From Pseudomonadota bacterium (GTDB taxonomy: Bacteria > Pseudomonadota > Gammaproteobacteria > Halothiobacillales > Halothiobacillaceae), in the NCBI GenBank assembly GCA_021801265.1, contig JAJYYE010000002.1, positions 62,001 to 126,000 of the forward strand: 64,000 nt of DNA, given 5' to 3'. Position 1 is the stretch's first letter; each line of letters starts with the position of its first letter. A program made the position numbers and the translations under genes. Below the pieces are notes generated by a model that saw only the letters and a list, made by a program, of their open reading frames with translations, searched no databases and had not been told where the DNA came from. Shown piece by piece: positions 30,176-40,220 of the stretch.

Positions 30176-31126
30176 CTAATTGCCACTCACGCCGAACCGG
30201 CGGAAATACCCCATCACCCGATCCGACAGCCCCGTGAGGAGTGGCTTGACGGACTGGGCGACCGAATGCCGCTTTTGAAGCTCGGGTTGGGTTTGCAACA
30301 CGTGGTGGTAATCCAGCGCCGACTGCACGTTTTTCACAAAGGTACCAACATGCCCCGGCTTGGGGTGGAAGCGGAACACTTGGCCCTGGTTAATCAGCTC
30401 AACCAACAATTCATAATCACGCAACTGAGTCAGCACAATCGTGACCAATTGCGGGTGCGATTGTTTGAGTGCCTTAATTGCGCCCACATGGCTTGCTTGG
30501 CCATCCTGCACATCGGTAACAAGCACACCAATGTTCTGCGTACTCAGTAGCTCCAGTGCTTCATCCAAATTTCGCGCCCAATGCAGCGGGTTATTCGGTG
30601 GCGTAGCACGTTTGACCAACTCATACGCCGCAGGGTCACGGTCAAGCAGCAAAATGCCGGGGCATGCTTCCGGCACCTCGGCGACCTCGGCCATCACGGG
30701 ATTCTGGCCGGACTGCGCCCGCCGCGCAGCAGCGGTAAAGTTTAATTCAGCGACATGCGCCGCGGCCCGTACATCGGCGCGAATCTGTTCGGTATCCCAC
30801 GGTTTCTGCAAAAAACGGAAAATCTCACCTTCATTCACCGAACCGATCACAGCGGCGAGATCTGCATAACCCGTCAACAGTAAACGCATCGTATGAGGGG
30901 ACGCCTCACGAATACCACGTAGCACTTCGACGCCCGGCATCATCGGCATGCGTTGGTCAGAAATCACCACCGCCACAGGCTGCGCCTGGACAAGGCGAAT
31001 GGCTTCATGGCCATCGTCGGTGGTTAGCACATTAAATTCATTGCGGAACAACATCTTAAGTGACCGCGTAATCCGCGTCTCGTCATCGACCAATAATAAA
31101 GTGGGTTTGAGATTGTGATCAATCAT
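30176..31126 (-). CDS. Tandem receiver-domain (REC-REC) response regulator
   Basis: REC1 LLVDDETRITRSL..VVISDQRMPMM..LLLTGYAD; second, divergent REC (ILLLDRDPAAYELV..VLVTDVQDG). Confidence 0.88.
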   Translation of the reverse strand: MIDHNLKPTLLLVDDETRITRSLKMLFRNEFNVLTTDDGHEAIRLVQAQPVAVVISDQRMPMMPGVEVLRGIREASPHTMRLLLTGYADLAAVIGSVNEGEIFRFLQKPWDTEQIRADVRAAAHVAELNFTAAARRAQSGQNPVMAEVAEVPEACPGILLLDRDPAAYELVKRATPPNNPLHWARNLDEALELLSTQNIGVLVTDVQDGQASHVGAIKALKQSHPQLVTIVLTQLRDYELLVELINQGQVFRFHPKPGHVGTFVKNVQSALDYHHVLQTQPELQKRHSVAQSVKPLLTGLSDRVMGYFRRFGVSGN

Positions 31127-31150
31127 GTCGGGTTCCTCGGTAATCGCCTC

Positions 31151-32533
31151 TTAAGCTGAACGGGCCAATACGGGCTCATCAGTCAATAATTCTTCAGGGG
31201 GTGAGGGCATCCGTGCGGTGGGGGTATCTGGAGTACTTTGGGTGGTAGGGCTTGTTATCGGCAGACTAATTTCAAAACGGGTGCCCACGCCTTCTTTGGT
31301 GGCCAGGCGAATATCTCCGCCGTGATCTTTAATAATGCGATAACTGATCGATAAACCCAGCCCCGTGCCTTCACCGACTTTTTTTGTGGTGTAGAACGGT
31401 TCAAAAATGTGCGCCACATGCGCAGCGGGAATACCACTACCGTTATCTTCAATACTGATGCATGCAAATTCACCGCGCGTATAGGTACGAATCAAGAGCT
31501 TGCCTTGATCGTGGTCAATGGCTTGGGCGGCGTTGGTCATCACGTTGAGTAGCACTTGATTAATCTGGGATGGCGAACAGGGCACGCGAGGAATGGGCTC
31601 GAAACGTTTTTCTATGGTGACTTTATTTTTGAGGTGGTGGTACCCCACCGTGAGTGCAGTTTCGATGTTTTCGATTAAATCCACCTGATCGGTGGCCGCA
31701 CGATCGACCCGGGAAAAATTCTTCAAGCTCAACACAATGTCGCTGATTTGTTTTAAGCCGAATCGCGCGTCGTTAAACAGCTCGGTTAAATCGGCCAAAT
31801 CGCTCACCGCATCAAAATCTTGCCGAATCGCGGCAATCGTCTGGATACGTCCTTCTATATCGTGTGGTTCTGCCGTCTCGCTTAACAGCCCTTCAAACAA
31901 CCCATCGTATGCCTCGACCAGCGTGTGAATCTGGCCAAGCATTTCTTCAGCCATTTGCACGTTATTCCCCACATAACCCAGTGGCGTATTAATTTCATGC
32001 GCCACGCCAGCCACCATCTGCCCCAAGGCGGCCATTTTTTCGGACTGCACCAAGTGCGCCTGCGAGGCTTTAATTTCTTGATTCGCATGGGCCAATGCCT
32101 GATTTCGTTGACCTAAACGCTGCTCCACCAATTTGAGCACATCGGCCACATAGCCCAAACCCGCATAGCGACCATCGACTTCAACAAACACAAAGTCCTC
32201 GATAATGGGTGTGCGAATTTGGCTCGTCACCGCAGAAATAACCTTGGTCGTGGATTCAGCCAACGAAACAATAATTGGCAGCGGATTCATAAAATTATGG
32301 ATCGGCCGTTTGCCGTATAAATCGCGGGAGTATTTGTTCAGTAACAACTCCATTAAGGCGTGGCGACTCATCAGGCCAATCGGTCGATGATCTTCATCCA
32401 CGATGGCCAACGACAACATACGTTCAAAGCCGCCTGCCTGAAAACGCTCGGTAACTGCAGTGAGCGACATATCTGCAGTGAGGGGGGGAACGGGATCAAG
32501 CAGCGCACGCAAAGGGGATGACATCAGGAGCAC
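31151..32533 (-). CDS. Histidine kinase with N-terminal CBS-like input module
   Basis: H-box MVAGVAHEINTPLGY, N/G boxes (VLLNVMTNAAQAI, GEGTGLGLSIS), N-terminal IGLMSRHALMELLLNKYSRDLYGKRPI..VDGRYAGLGYVADVLK. Confidence 0.93.
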   Translation of the reverse strand: MLLMSSPLRALLDPVPPLTADMSLTAVTERFQAGGFERMLSLAIVDEDHRPIGLMSRHALMELLLNKYSRDLYGKRPIHNFMNPLPIIVSLAESTTKVISAVTSQIRTPIIEDFVFVEVDGRYAGLGYVADVLKLVEQRLGQRNQALAHANQEIKASQAHLVQSEKMAALGQMVAGVAHEINTPLGYVGNNVQMAEEMLGQIHTLVEAYDGLFEGLLSETAEPHDIEGRIQTIAAIRQDFDAVSDLADLTELFNDARFGLKQISDIVLSLKNFSRVDRAATDQVDLIENIETALTVGYHHLKNKVTIEKRFEPIPRVPCSPSQINQVLLNVMTNAAQAIDHDQGKLLIRTYTRGEFACISIEDNGSGIPAAHVAHIFEPFYTTKKVGEGTGLGLSISYRIIKDHGGDIRLATKEGVGTRFEISLPITSPTTQSTPDTPTARMPSPPEELLTDEPVLARSA

Positions 32534-35076: not shown

Positions 35077-35880
35077 TTAGTTTTTTAGCCGAAAAGCCAT
35101 CCCGCCGCCCGGCAAGCGCTCAATGGTAAAACGTTCACTCAATTGCTGCACCGATTCGGATGCGCCCAAAATCAGAACACCATTGGGCTGAAGCGCATTG
35201 GCCAATTGTTCAATGATTTTCATCTTGGTTTCCCGCGAAAAATAAATCAGCACGTTGCGGCAAAAAATGAGATCGAACCGACCCAGCGCCGACACAGGAT
35301 CCAAAAGATTCGCAACTTGGAACCGAACGCGCCGCGTGATTTCACTTTTCAGTTGCCAACCGTGTTCTACCCGGTCAAAAAATTGGTGTTTGCGGGCTGC
35401 CGATAACCCCCGCCCCAGCGATAAATCATCGTACATACCCAATTTTGCCTGTTCCAAAATACGGGATGACAAGTCGGTAGCCACGATTTCAACCGGGAAA
35501 GGCAGGTTCCTTTCACTGGCTAACATACTGATGGAATAAGGTTCCTGCCCCGAGGAACAAGCCGCCGACCAAATGCGCACTGAACGCTTCCGCGCGGCCT
35601 CGGCTTCGGGTAAAAACACATCACGCAGTGCGGCAAAGGGGTACTCATCCCGAAACCAGAGAGTTTCATTGGTGGTCATCGCCTCAATCACCGCTTTTTC
35701 CAGCGCGGGTTCATGGCGATGGAGCAGCCGTTCCACCAACTCATCCATCGAGGGAATCTGCAGCTCGCGTAACACGCGGCTCAAGCGGGTTTCAACCAGA
35801 TACCGCTTATCGACACTGAGCAGAATGCCACTGTGTTGCTCCAACAGCGCGCAGAATTTCTGATAGTGCTCTGGGCTCAT
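35077..35880 (-). CDS. cheR: Chemotaxis protein methyltransferase CheR
   Basis: IWSAACSSGQEPYSISML; FDLIFCRNVLIYFSRETK. Confidence 0.95.
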   Translation of the reverse strand: MSPEHYQKFCALLEQHSGILLSVDKRYLVETRLSRVLRELQIPSMDELVERLLHRHEPALEKAVIEAMTTNETLWFRDEYPFAALRDVFLPEAEAARKRSVRIWSAACSSGQEPYSISMLASERNLPFPVEIVATDLSSRILEQAKLGMYDDLSLGRGLSAARKHQFFDRVEHGWQLKSEITRRVRFQVANLLDPVSALGRFDLIFCRNVLIYFSRETKMKIIEQLANALQPNGVLILGASESVQQLSERFTIERLPGGGMAFRLKN

Positions 35881-35882
35881 CC

Positions 35883-36839
35883 CTACACCGATTCTGCCAA
35901 ATGTTTTGGTCGATTCTTGAGCGCTTCGGCCACAACCCGAGCCAGATCATCGGGATGAAATTTCGCAATGAACCGATCCGCCCCCACGGATTTCACCATG
36001 GTCTCGTTAAACACACCACTTAATGAGGAATGCAGAATAACGTACAGCGATTTGAGCCGCGCATCGCGCCGGATCTGCGTGGTAAGCGCATAGCCATCCA
36101 TAATCGGCATCTCAATGTCCGAGATCACTAAGGCGACGCGATCCAACTGCTCCGGTGACTCGTCGGCCCAGCGGCGCAAGAGATCAAAAGCCTCCTTACC
36201 ATTCGTGGCCAGCACTGTTTCCAGCCCCATTTGCTTCAACGTATTGCGTACCTGATTGCGGGCAACCAATGAGTCGTCCGCAACCAGGGCAATGCTGTCC
36301 GTCGCTGCCAATCCGCGCACATCGTGCAACACATCGGCAGAAATCTCTTCTTTGGCGCCAACCACTTTCGAAAAAATCTGTTCCACATCAATGATTTCAA
36401 CCAAAACCTGATCAACGCGCGCCACAGCCGTTAAAAAGTTGGAGGTATTGGTCCCCGTCGGCGGCGGCATCACCTCTTTCCATGAAAGATTCACGATGCG
36501 ATCGACTGAATGCACCAAAAATCCCTGTACCGCCCGGTTGTATTCGGTAATGATCACAAAGGATTCAGCGACCTGCTCCGGCGTCATGCGGGGATTGCCA
36601 ATGGCATCCGATAAATCAATAATCGTCATCGTATGACCACGCACATCTGCAATACCGCGCACCGACGAAGCCGCTTTGGGTACCTCAGTGAGCTTGGGGC
36701 AACGAATCACCTCACGCACTTTGAAGACATTGATGCCAAAACGTTGGTCATCACCTAAACCGAAGACCAGCAACTCAAGGCGATTATGCCCAGCAAGCTG
36801 GGTGCGGGAATCGACTGAAGACATCACATCTTTTTTCAC
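35883..36839 (-). CDS. cheV: Chemotaxis coupling protein CheV (CheW-REC)
   Basis: CheW N-terminus (FGINVFKVREVIRCPKLTEVP) and REC domain (LVISDIEMPIMDGYALT). Confidence 0.92.
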   Translation of the reverse strand: MKKDVMSSVDSRTQLAGHNRLELLVFGLGDDQRFGINVFKVREVIRCPKLTEVPKAASSVRGIADVRGHTMTIIDLSDAIGNPRMTPEQVAESFVIITEYNRAVQGFLVHSVDRIVNLSWKEVMPPPTGTNTSNFLTAVARVDQVLVEIIDVEQIFSKVVGAKEEISADVLHDVRGLAATDSIALVADDSLVARNQVRNTLKQMGLETVLATNGKEAFDLLRRWADESPEQLDRVALVISDIEMPIMDGYALTTQIRRDARLKSLYVILHSSLSGVFNETMVKSVGADRFIAKFHPDDLARVVAEALKNRPKHLAESV

Positions 36840-37226: not shown

Positions 37227-38480
37227 ATGCTTAAAGAAATTCGCTTCGCGGGTGACTTGCTGATTGAAGCCAGCGCCATCACACCCGAATTCAAAAATGA
37301 AGATGTTCTGGCACTATTCTCGCAAAAATCCAGCCTGCAAAATTTACCAGTATTGCTTGACGATGGCCGCCCGCTGGGGCTTATTAACCGCAACTTATTT
37401 CACAGCAATATGACCAAGCCCTATTATCCCGAGCTATACAGCCAAAAAAGCTGTATTGCATTTATGGATAAAAACCCGTTAATTGTTGAGGCCAGCCTGC
37501 AAATTGAGCAACTGACTGCCTTGGCCGTCGAAACGGGAAACAAGATATTTACCGACGGCTTTATTATCGTCATCGATGGCAAATATCAGGGCATCGGCCA
37601 AGTACTCGACCTGATGCACGCCATGACCGAGCTCCAAGCGCGGCAGCATCGCCAATTGATTGAAAGTATTGAGTATGCCAGCGTCATTCAACAATCAATT
37701 CTCAACCCGTCCCGGATGGCACTGGATGCGTACTTTCCCGACAACCATTGGTTAATTTGGGCGCCCCGGGATGTGGTCGGTGGGGATATTTTTCATTTCA
37801 TCCCCACAAATGCAGCGGCGAAGGATGGAACGACTGAGAATGATGGCTTTTTAGCGGTTCTGTTCGATTGTACCGGGCACGGCGTGCCGGGCGCTTTTAT
37901 GACCCTGATTGCCGAATCAGCGCTGGCCCAAGCGATTGCGACGCACGGCGATCATGATCCGGCGGCGTTACTTGCCGCCATCAATCAGTACATCAAGCGC
38001 ACGCTCAACCAACATGATAAAGAAACCGGCACCCGCGAAAACTCCGATGACGGGTTGGATGGCATGATTGTTCGTTATGATAAAAATCAACAGCATCTGA
38101 TTTTTGCCAGCGCGCGCAATCCATTATTTATCATGAAACTAGATCACGATGCGCCGATCGAAATCTTAGCAGGTGACCGCAAAGGCGTGGGTTACGCCAG
38201 CACACCGATGAATGCCACCTGGCAAAATCATCTGGTTCCCATTCATCAACCCAGCCGAATTTTCTTGGTCACGGATGGCGTCATTGACCAAGTGGGCGGA
38301 GTTAAAAAAATTGCGTTCGGCAAACGTCGCTTATGCCATGTACTGGCCGACGTTCGCCATGCAGATGTGCCAACACAGCAAGCCGCCTTCGTTAAATCGT
38401 TTGCGGATTATCAAGGACAGCAAAGTCGGCGGGATGATGTCACCTTGCTGGCGCTTGATCTCATCCCGAATCCCACCTAA
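37227..38480 (+). CDS. SiaA-like PP2C/SpoIIE phosphatase with CBS-like N-terminus
   Basis: APRDVVGGDIFHF, LFDCTGHGVPGAFMTLI, FLVTDGVIDQVGG. First gene of a siaABCD-type set. Confidence 0.88.
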   Translation: MLKEIRFAGDLLIEASAITPEFKNEDVLALFSQKSSLQNLPVLLDDGRPLGLINRNLFHSNMTKPYYPELYSQKSCIAFMDKNPLIVEASLQIEQLTALAVETGNKIFTDGFIIVIDGKYQGIGQVLDLMHAMTELQARQHRQLIESIEYASVIQQSILNPSRMALDAYFPDNHWLIWAPRDVVGGDIFHFIPTNAAAKDGTTENDGFLAVLFDCTGHGVPGAFMTLIAESALAQAIATHGDHDPAALLAAINQYIKRTLNQHDKETGTRENSDDGLDGMIVRYDKNQQHLIFASARNPLFIMKLDHDAPIEILAGDRKGVGYASTPMNATWQNHLVPIHQPSRIFLVTDGVIDQVGGVKKIAFGKRRLCHVLADVRHADVPTQQAAFVKSFADYQGQQSRRDDVTLLALDLIPNPT

Positions 38481-38507
38481 TTTCACATTATTCAAGGAAA
38501 GCCATAC

Positions 38508-39068
38508 ATGGACAATTTCCCCGCGCATGAACCGATTAATCCCTGTTTTCCGGGTTTGGATAGTCATCTGATTTTTTTCTACGCCGGTTATTTTTCACAA
38601 AATATCATCAATGCCATTGGCGATGCCGTGCGCTTACGGTTGGAACAATCTGAAACCTCGGGCAGTGTGCGACGCAAGATCTTTTCGACATTTATCGAAA
38701 TGGCACAAAACATTGTGCATTACTCCAGCGACAGCCTCACACCACTCGACCAAGCGACGCTAGAAATGCGCGCCGGCTCGGTGATGGTGACCCATCTCGA
38801 TAACACCTTTCACATTATTTGCGCTAACCCTGTAGAAGCTAACTTTGCCGAACAGCTGAAGCCCCTGCTCGAACCCTTGCGCGTCATGTCGACCGAGCAA
38901 ATTAAAGACGCATATCGCAAGATGCTGCGTACCGAGACCGGCGAGAACAGCAAGGGTGCCGGGCTTGGGTTCCTCACCATTGCCAAAGATAGTTCCACAC
39001 CAATTGAATATGGGTTCGAACCTGTCGCCAACGGCATGATCATGTTCACCCTTAAGGCCACGATTTAA
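38508..39068 (+). CDS. SiaB family protein kinase (DUF6272)
   Basis: FSTFIEMAQNIVHYS N-box-like motif; G-box region GENSKGAGLGFLTIAKDSS; operon position. Confidence 0.85.
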   Translation: MDNFPAHEPINPCFPGLDSHLIFFYAGYFSQNIINAIGDAVRLRLEQSETSGSVRRKIFSTFIEMAQNIVHYSSDSLTPLDQATLEMRAGSVMVTHLDNTFHIICANPVEANFAEQLKPLLEPLRVMSTEQIKDAYRKMLRTETGENSKGAGLGFLTIAKDSSTPIEYGFEPVANGMIMFTLKATI

Positions 39069-39096
39069 CACGTTTTTACGCATCAGGATTCCGCAC

Positions 39097-39483
39097 ATGG
39101 AAAAATTTTACTTAGCCGCGACCAGTAATACCCCCGAGGTTGATTTTGACTTCCCCGTACGCCGTCTGCTTTTAAAGGGCGAATCATATCCAGAAAGCGC
39201 CGCTGCTTTTTATGGCGATATTCTTGCCAAAACCGACCAGTTTATCGGTGAGTTAGCGCGCGAAACGGTACAAGTCAGCGTGCAACTCAATTACTTCAAT
39301 AGCTCCAGCACTAAAATGCTGTTCAGCCTTTTTGACCGACTGAATCAAGCGGCAGAAGAAGGCAATACCATTGTGCTGGATTGGCATCACGATATTGATG
39401 ATGAAACCATCCTCGAGTTTGGTCTTGAGCTCGCCGAAGATTTTCCTTCCATCGATTTTAACGCCCAAGCAATTGAATCCTGA
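39097..39483 (+). CDS. SiaC family regulatory phosphoprotein (DUF1987)
   Basis: GESYPESAAAFYGDIL; VQLNYFNSSSTKMLFSLFDRL; operon position. Confidence 0.9.
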   Translation: MEKFYLAATSNTPEVDFDFPVRRLLLKGESYPESAAAFYGDILAKTDQFIGELARETVQVSVQLNYFNSSSTKMLFSLFDRLNQAAEEGNTIVLDWHHDIDDETILEFGLELAEDFPSIDFNAQAIES

Positions 39484-40220
39484 TGGATAGTCAACCCCAA
39501 TCACCGCCCGATTTATTTGAGCGGGAAAAAACCGTGTTGGAACGCGCCATGCGGGTGCATGGCGATCCCTCACCGGCCGTGGTGCATTTCGCTTTGGCGG
39601 AGTTGATTGCAGAATATGAACGCGTGATTCGCGATATGCGCCGGGTGATTAGTCACTCCGACCGCACCGAACTGGAACTCAATATCGCCAATCAACGGTT
39701 AAGAGAGCTCACCGAAGCACTCACATTCCAAAATCGGCATGATGGATTAACCCGTTTGCTGAACCGCAACACGCTGATCTTTGAGGCCGAGCGCCTGCTC
39801 AAGCAGGCCCCCGTTGCGTTGATTCTGCTCGACATCGATCACTTCAAACAAGTGAATGACCGCTACGGCCACCCAACAGGCGATAAAGTTTTAACGGGGC
39901 TCGCTACCGCACTCAACCACCTTGTCAAAACGCCGAGCTTTTGCGGCCGCCTGGGGGGTGAAGAGTTTGCCGCAGTCATTCCAACCGAGCATATTCGTGA
40001 AGCCATTGTGATCGCCGAACACTTGAGCAGCCACATCCGTGACTTACGCTGCGCGCCTGAAGCCGGGTTGCGGATTACCGCATCATTAAGCGTGACGGTC
40101 GCACAGGCCGGTGTCTCCTTTGAAAAACTCTACGTTTGCGGCGACGATGCCTTATATCGCGCCAAACACAATGGTCGAGATCGTATTGAAATTGTATGGC
40201 GTCTGTTAGAAACCACTTGA
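39483..40220 (+). CDS. SiaD-like diguanylate cyclase
   Basis: Coiled-coil N-terminus, then ILLDIDHFKQVNDRYGHPTGD and RLGGEEFAAVIP. Start overlaps siaC stop. Confidence 0.9.
   Translation: MDSQPQSPPDLFEREKTVLERAMRVHGDPSPAVVHFALAELIAEYERVIRDMRRVISHSDRTELELNIANQRLRELTEALTFQNRHDGLTRLLNRNTLIFEAERLLKQAPVALILLDIDHFKQVNDRYGHPTGDKVLTGLATALNHLVKTPSFCGRLGGEEFAAVIPTEHIREAIVIAEHLSSHIRDLRCAPEAGLRITASLSVTVAQAGVSFEKLYVCGDDALYRAKHNGRDRIEIVWRLLETT

Follow-up and report, generated by a model that had tools for sequence, protein, structure and literature searches.

The closest described counterpart of the locus studied here is SiaABCD, the SDS-induced aggregation operon of Pseudomonas aeruginosa, in which SiaB phosphorylates SiaC, SiaA dephosphorylates SiaC, and unphosphorylated SiaC assembles active SiaD (PMC8457831; PMC7647112). 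P. aeruginosa SiaA, a protein with two transmembrane domains, is a sensor of membrane perturbation; its sensing has been probed with a chimera exchanging the first 336 residues (PMC12834913). In related PP2C enzymes, regulatory domains act by moving switch helices via the dimer interface (PMC5468089).

In the window analysed here, a stretch of DNA of 64,000 nucleotides, we examined a four-gene operon whose products all have P. aeruginosa Sia proteins as their nearest solved structures. The phosphatase of this operon carries a cytoplasmic CBS pair. The operon is a predicted switch over the production of c-di-GMP, a biofilm signal.

Gene order and family membership

The first-pass annotation had described four tightly packed genes on the plus strand, encoding a PP2C phosphatase, SiaB, SiaC and a GGEEF cyclase, and both the coordinates and the families are borne out (Table 1), with Pfam E-values from 5.9e-22 to 5.4e-39. 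Specifically, the phosphatase matches SpoIIE/PP2C (E=5.9e-22), the kinase matches DUF6272, the SiaB family (E=5.4e-39), and the cyclase matches GGDEF (E=1.6e-31). Within 38508-39483, the span on which that annotation had staked its SiaB and SiaC assignments, both family matches are strong. The intergenic gaps are 27, 28 and −1 bases, siaC and siaD overlapping by one base. Each of the four family matches is significant, and related genomes keep the gene set, placing the operon far beyond chance. A scan for promoters and terminators was uninformative, the sites being no commoner than in shuffled sequence.

Table 1. Features of the operon and its proteins, in window positions
Feature	Position	Strand	Basis
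Four-gene operon	37227-40220	+	CBS-pair/PP2C phosphatase, SiaB-family kinase, SiaC phosphoprotein, GGEEF cyclase
siaA-like, cytosolic CBS-pair + PP2C protein phosphatase, 417 aa	37227..38480	+	SpoIIE/PP2C and CBS matches, no transmembrane segment
CBS pair (Bateman module), residues ~1-130	37227..37616	+	AlphaFold, Foldseek, Pfam CBS
Continuous helix, residues 126-169 (44 residues), CBS2 to PP2C	37602..37733	+	AlphaFold full-protein model
PP2C domain	37677..38462	+	Alignment to SiaA
siaB-like protein kinase (DUF6272/GHKL), 186 aa	38508..39068	+	Pfam, NCBIfam, PDB 6kko_A
siaC-like phosphoprotein, 128 aa	39097..39483	+	Pfam SiaC 1.7e-36; PDB 6kko/7e6g SiaC
Ser69 (N-S-S), predicted phospho-acceptor	39301..39303	+	Alignment with P. 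aeruginosa SiaC T68 (N-T-S)
siaD-like GGEEF diguanylate cyclase, N-terminal helical stalk, 245 aa	39483..40220	+	Pfam GGDEF; PDB 7e6g
Single SiaC-docking motif S59-D60-R61-T62-E63, SiaD stalk	39657..39671	+	Alignment with P. aeruginosa S82-D83-R84-Y85-Q86
K-T-P-S replacing the RxxD inhibitory (I) site	39927..39938	+	Alignment; GGEEF next at 39954-39968

The kinase passes the NCBIfam subfamily model SiaB_fam_kinase (196.8 bits, cutoff 85). The NCBIfam equivalog cutoffs for SiaA (700 bits), SiaB (225), SiaC (150) and SiaD (290) are not reached, the scores being 191.7, 78.8, 76.2 and 141.5 bits, respectively, and the SiaA model NF038263 aligns to the phosphatase solely at model positions 396-655 of 658, the phosphatase half. 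Because of this restricted alignment and the lack of a transmembrane segment, we class the operon as a SiaABCD-like variant and not as SiaABCD proper.

Directly upstream of the operon, and divergent from it, lie genes for a CheV-like protein (CheW plus receiver) and a CheR-like methyltransferase (35077-36839, minus strand); the operon may have a link to chemotaxis.

A cytosolic CBS pair ahead of the PP2C domain

The N-terminal module of the phosphatase had been called CBS-like, and we can now identify it as a CBS pair. Scored over the whole protein, the Pfam CBS match is sub-threshold (21 bits against 24), and for this reason we turned to the orthologs and to the fold. The N-terminal domain scanned alone passes the CBS model (25.5 bits against 24), as do 14 of 15 orthologous N-termini, and AlphaFold models the domain as a CBS pair (pLDDT 90.5, pTM 0.83) for which Foldseek returns structures of AcuB, CBSX2 and DarB (E about 1e-8). 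The ortholog scan, the model and the fold search together rule out a chance match.

The phosphatase has no predicted transmembrane segment or periplasmic sensor, even when the longest possible N-terminus is included (maximum 19-residue Kyte-Doolittle mean 1.36). The first-pass annotation had drawn the same contrast with membrane-bound SiaA, and the two transmembrane domains reported for the P. aeruginosa protein (PMC12834913) agree with it.

The catalytic half resembles that of SiaA. The top PDB match of the phosphatase is the PP2C domain of P. aeruginosa SiaA (6k4e, E=3.4e-44), and the modelled domain superimposes on it with a target TM-score of 0.90. The metal-site residues listed for SiaA (PMC7647112) are all present and are invariant in the aligned relatives, with D187, D214, G217, D350, G351 and D403 aligning with SiaA D457, D474, G477, D600, G601 and D653. 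In the full-length model (pLDDT 88.3, pTM 0.68), a single unbroken helix connects CBS2 with the PP2C domain. We propose from this model that it may serve as a signalling and dimer helix, an arrangement that would fit the switch-helix control known from the related enzymes.

The same CBS cassette occurs elsewhere in the source genome, which encodes 31 GGDEF domains, four PilZ domains, one SiaC and two SpoIIE-type PP2C domains. One copy lies in an EAL-CBS-GGDEF protein (L061:1986-3908) whose GGDEF motif reads GGDDF. Another forms the N-terminus of a histidine kinase of 460 aa (31151-32533, minus strand), which adjoins a response regulator containing two stretches that resemble receivers, the pair occupying 30176-32533 on the minus strand; in several genomes of the same genus, a homologous CBS ORF is found 5-14 kb away from the sia operon. 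The presence of one cassette on the phosphatase, the EAL-CBS-GGDEF protein and the histidine kinase hints that several outputs might depend on the same kind of internal cue.

The SiaC and SiaD proteins and the spread of the CBS-type operon

The predicted phospho-acceptor of SiaC is a serine in place of the phospho-switch threonine T68 of P. aeruginosa (PMC8457831; PMC7647112). We asked whether this change marks the CBS variant and discarded the idea: serine is common at this place in either operon type. SiaD has P. aeruginosa SiaD as its top PDB match (7e6g, E=1.1e-24), and its stalk retains the motif equivalent to S82-Q86, which contacts SiaC T68 in P. aeruginosa (PMC8457831). A second docking motif is not seen in the stalk, whereas SiaD of the Pseudomonas type carries two.

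Furthermore, the SiaD of this operon has lost the I-site, which we scored as RxxD five residues ahead of GGEEF. Among the collected operons, RxxD is absent from 30 of 30 CBS-type SiaD, some of these rows being second retrievals of genes from the genus of the source genome, and present in 17 of 19 of the other type (Fisher p=2.6e-11, with ancestry ignored); the site is missing also in two membrane-type SiaD. As the CBS-type operons amount essentially to a single clade, we read the loss of RxxD together with the CBS type as a single correlated evolutionary change.

The first-pass annotation had treated the operon as a local peculiarity. Instead, the CBS-type operon is a widespread lineage in Beta- and Gammaproteobacteria, and its loci in many other genomes rule out a single-genome oddity. 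In a class-wide sample, SiaC was found in 10 of 369 genomes, with the CBS-form phosphatase only in the source genome and one other (G346), the other loci having mostly membrane-type phosphatases. A collection scan yielded 17 further full-length CBS-PP2C genes, each adjoining siaB and siaC, in hosts including Vogesella, Paraburkholderia, Acidovorax, Cupriavidus, Janthinobacterium, Herbaspirillum, Duganella, Pseudomonas batumici and gingeri, Methylomonas and Phytobacter, and a phylum sample added 11 more loci from ten other genomes, again all adjoining siaB and siaC. Altogether, every collected CBS-PP2C phosphatase adjoins siaB and siaC (44/44, three of these loci being repeats of genes already collected).

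In the phosphatase tree, 29 of 31 CBS-type rows form one clade (100/99), and the same 29 form one clade in the SiaB tree (99/100). The SiaC tree likewise keeps the CBS group together except for row L071, which we disregard, as only 19% of its columns are filled and it derives from an ORF fusing SiaB and SiaC. That ORF, of 330 aa, is from Cupriavidus sp. D384 (L071:6216-7208), where the two genes are apparently fused. Two CBS-PP2C genes from Betaproteobacteria MAGs labelled Lanier (L084:4938-6149 and L086:4047-5255), in the order siaB-siaC-phosphatase, fall elsewhere in the phosphatase tree. Their position outside the main CBS clade suggests that they probably represent a second, independent CBS fusion. 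One genome already holding a CBS-PP2C/siaB/siaC set carries a second, divergent one (L176, G570:C30).

Proposed signal route, alternatives and comparison with described systems

We consider it likely that the operon is a SiaABCD-type partner-switch module with an exchanged sensor, through which an intracellular cue would set SiaC phosphorylation and hence c-di-GMP synthesis; the topology and domain type of the phosphatase suggest that the cue comes from inside the cell. The scheme, with the signal direction, ligand binding and biochemical activities that we infer, would run as follows. The cytoplasmic CBS pair would read the cue and, via the continuous helix, alter the dimer geometry and with it PP2C activity. 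The SiaB-like kinase would phosphorylate SiaC at Ser69 and the PP2C domain would take the phosphate off, and unphosphorylated SiaC would then bind the stalk of SiaD at its SDR motif, turning c-di-GMP synthesis on. Because SiaD is without RxxD, output should be dominated by the cue-set level of SiaC phosphorylation and not by product inhibition. The scores under the equivalog cutoffs and the CBS-type operons that have no SiaD beside them count against this explanation.

What the CBS pair recognizes admits more than one answer. A specific form of the exchanged-sensor explanation, which we put forward tentatively, is that the pair is an adenylate energy sensor (AMP, ADP or ATP) coupling energy state to c-di-GMP synthesis. 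The top folds include AcuB with AMP/ADP/ATP and CBSX2 with AMP, and CBS2 has Asp128 at the usual ribose-binding position, a residue kept in the genus and family of the source genome and in all three CBS cassettes of that genome. However, an Asp occupies only one of the two sites, CBS1 having L57 where the canonical ribose-binding Asp would be; the D128 position is Asp in 8 of 18 aligned family members and Gln, Ser or Glu in other members; and a ligand cannot be named from similarity of fold. Nucleotide binding is uncertain given the state of these two positions, which also speaks for the idea that the pair binds no small molecule and acts as a dimerisation or docking platform whose input is a protein partner, as DarB binds Rel. 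The closest folds include DarB both by itself and in complex with Rel, and the conserved CBS residues (R55, F58, K74, C76, F79 and M80) are family-specific. The many nucleotide-bound CBS pairs that also rank among the nearest folds and the retention of D128 weigh on the other side. We regard a protein-partner input as less likely than not.

Two further alternatives concern the ends of the route. The phosphatase, kinase and SiaC might control another target, with the adjacent GGDEF gene merely a neighbour: seven CBS-PP2C operons with siaB and siaC have no adjacent GGDEF gene (L062, L063, L065, L067, L075, L076 and L077), SiaC in such operons may have other targets, and the source genome encodes many GGDEF domains. 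For the operon studied here we regard this as improbable, since its siaC and siaD overlap and its SiaD matches P. aeruginosa SiaD best and keeps the SDR docking motif. It is far less probable still that the phosphatase is truly membrane-bound, its N-terminus having been missed or lost to a frameshift. One relative (L044) does have an upstream extension that includes a weakly hydrophobic segment, but apart from it no relative has a transmembrane segment upstream of the CBS pair. In the source genome, the open frame extends at most 26 codons upstream without encoding such a segment, and these codons are not conserved. The start MLKEIRFAGDLL, with its ATG at 37227, is where genus-wide conservation sets in, eight members of the genus being conserved from MLKEIR onward. 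This onset of conservation, together with the hydropathy of the longest N-terminus, leads us to reject a missed transmembrane start.

A more speculative extension of the exchanged-sensor explanation, to which we assign a low probability, is that feedback has moved: as the lineage has lost the I-site of the cyclase, the CBS pair of the phosphatase may respond to a nucleotide, such as c-di-GMP, GTP/(p)ppGpp or an adenylate, so that the loop is closed via SiaC phosphorylation. The EAL-CBS-GGDEF protein and the CBS histidine kinase may answer to the same cue. If so, c-di-GMP synthesis, its breakdown and a two-component system would be tied to one internal signal.

Searches of the literature for a CBS-type SiaA, or for CBS domains combined with partner switching and a diguanylate cyclase, found nothing relevant, in a search with most subscription journals outside its range; the CBS-type SiaABCD variant is thus apparently undescribed so far. 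That a natural lineage swapped the sensor while retaining kinase, phosphoprotein and cyclase suggests a plug-and-play module. As a soluble, full-length phosphatase, CBS-PP2C is suited to reconstitution, and the idea that CBS ligands set c-di-GMP levels via a serine-phosphorylation partner switch becomes testable. We predict that the CBS branch in Beta- and Gammaproteobacteria will continue to escape curated SiaA models, since these were built on the membrane form.

Compared with P. aeruginosa SiaABCD, the operon has the same gene order, all PP2C metal-site residues, a SiaB-family kinase, the N-(T/S)-S phospho-motif of SiaC, and a GGEEF cyclase with the SDR stalk motif. It differs in having a CBS pair in place of the membrane sensor, Ser for Thr68 in SiaC, one SiaC docking motif in SiaD instead of two, and a lost RxxD I-site, and in that all four proteins lie under the NCBIfam equivalog cutoffs. 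With EAL-CBS-GGDEF proteins, such as that of the same genome, it shares the CBS cassette (E=9.3e-12 to the phosphatase) and a c-di-GMP enzyme; theirs, however, has the cassette between EAL and GGDEF, whereas that of the operon would drive a phosphatase. The SpoIIE/RsbU-type PP2C phosphatases of partner switches are similar in their PP2C fold, their helix-joined regulatory domain and their STAS-like phosphoprotein substrate, and differ from this operon in its output, which is a diguanylate cyclase as opposed to a sigma factor, and in its regulatory domain, which is a CBS pair.
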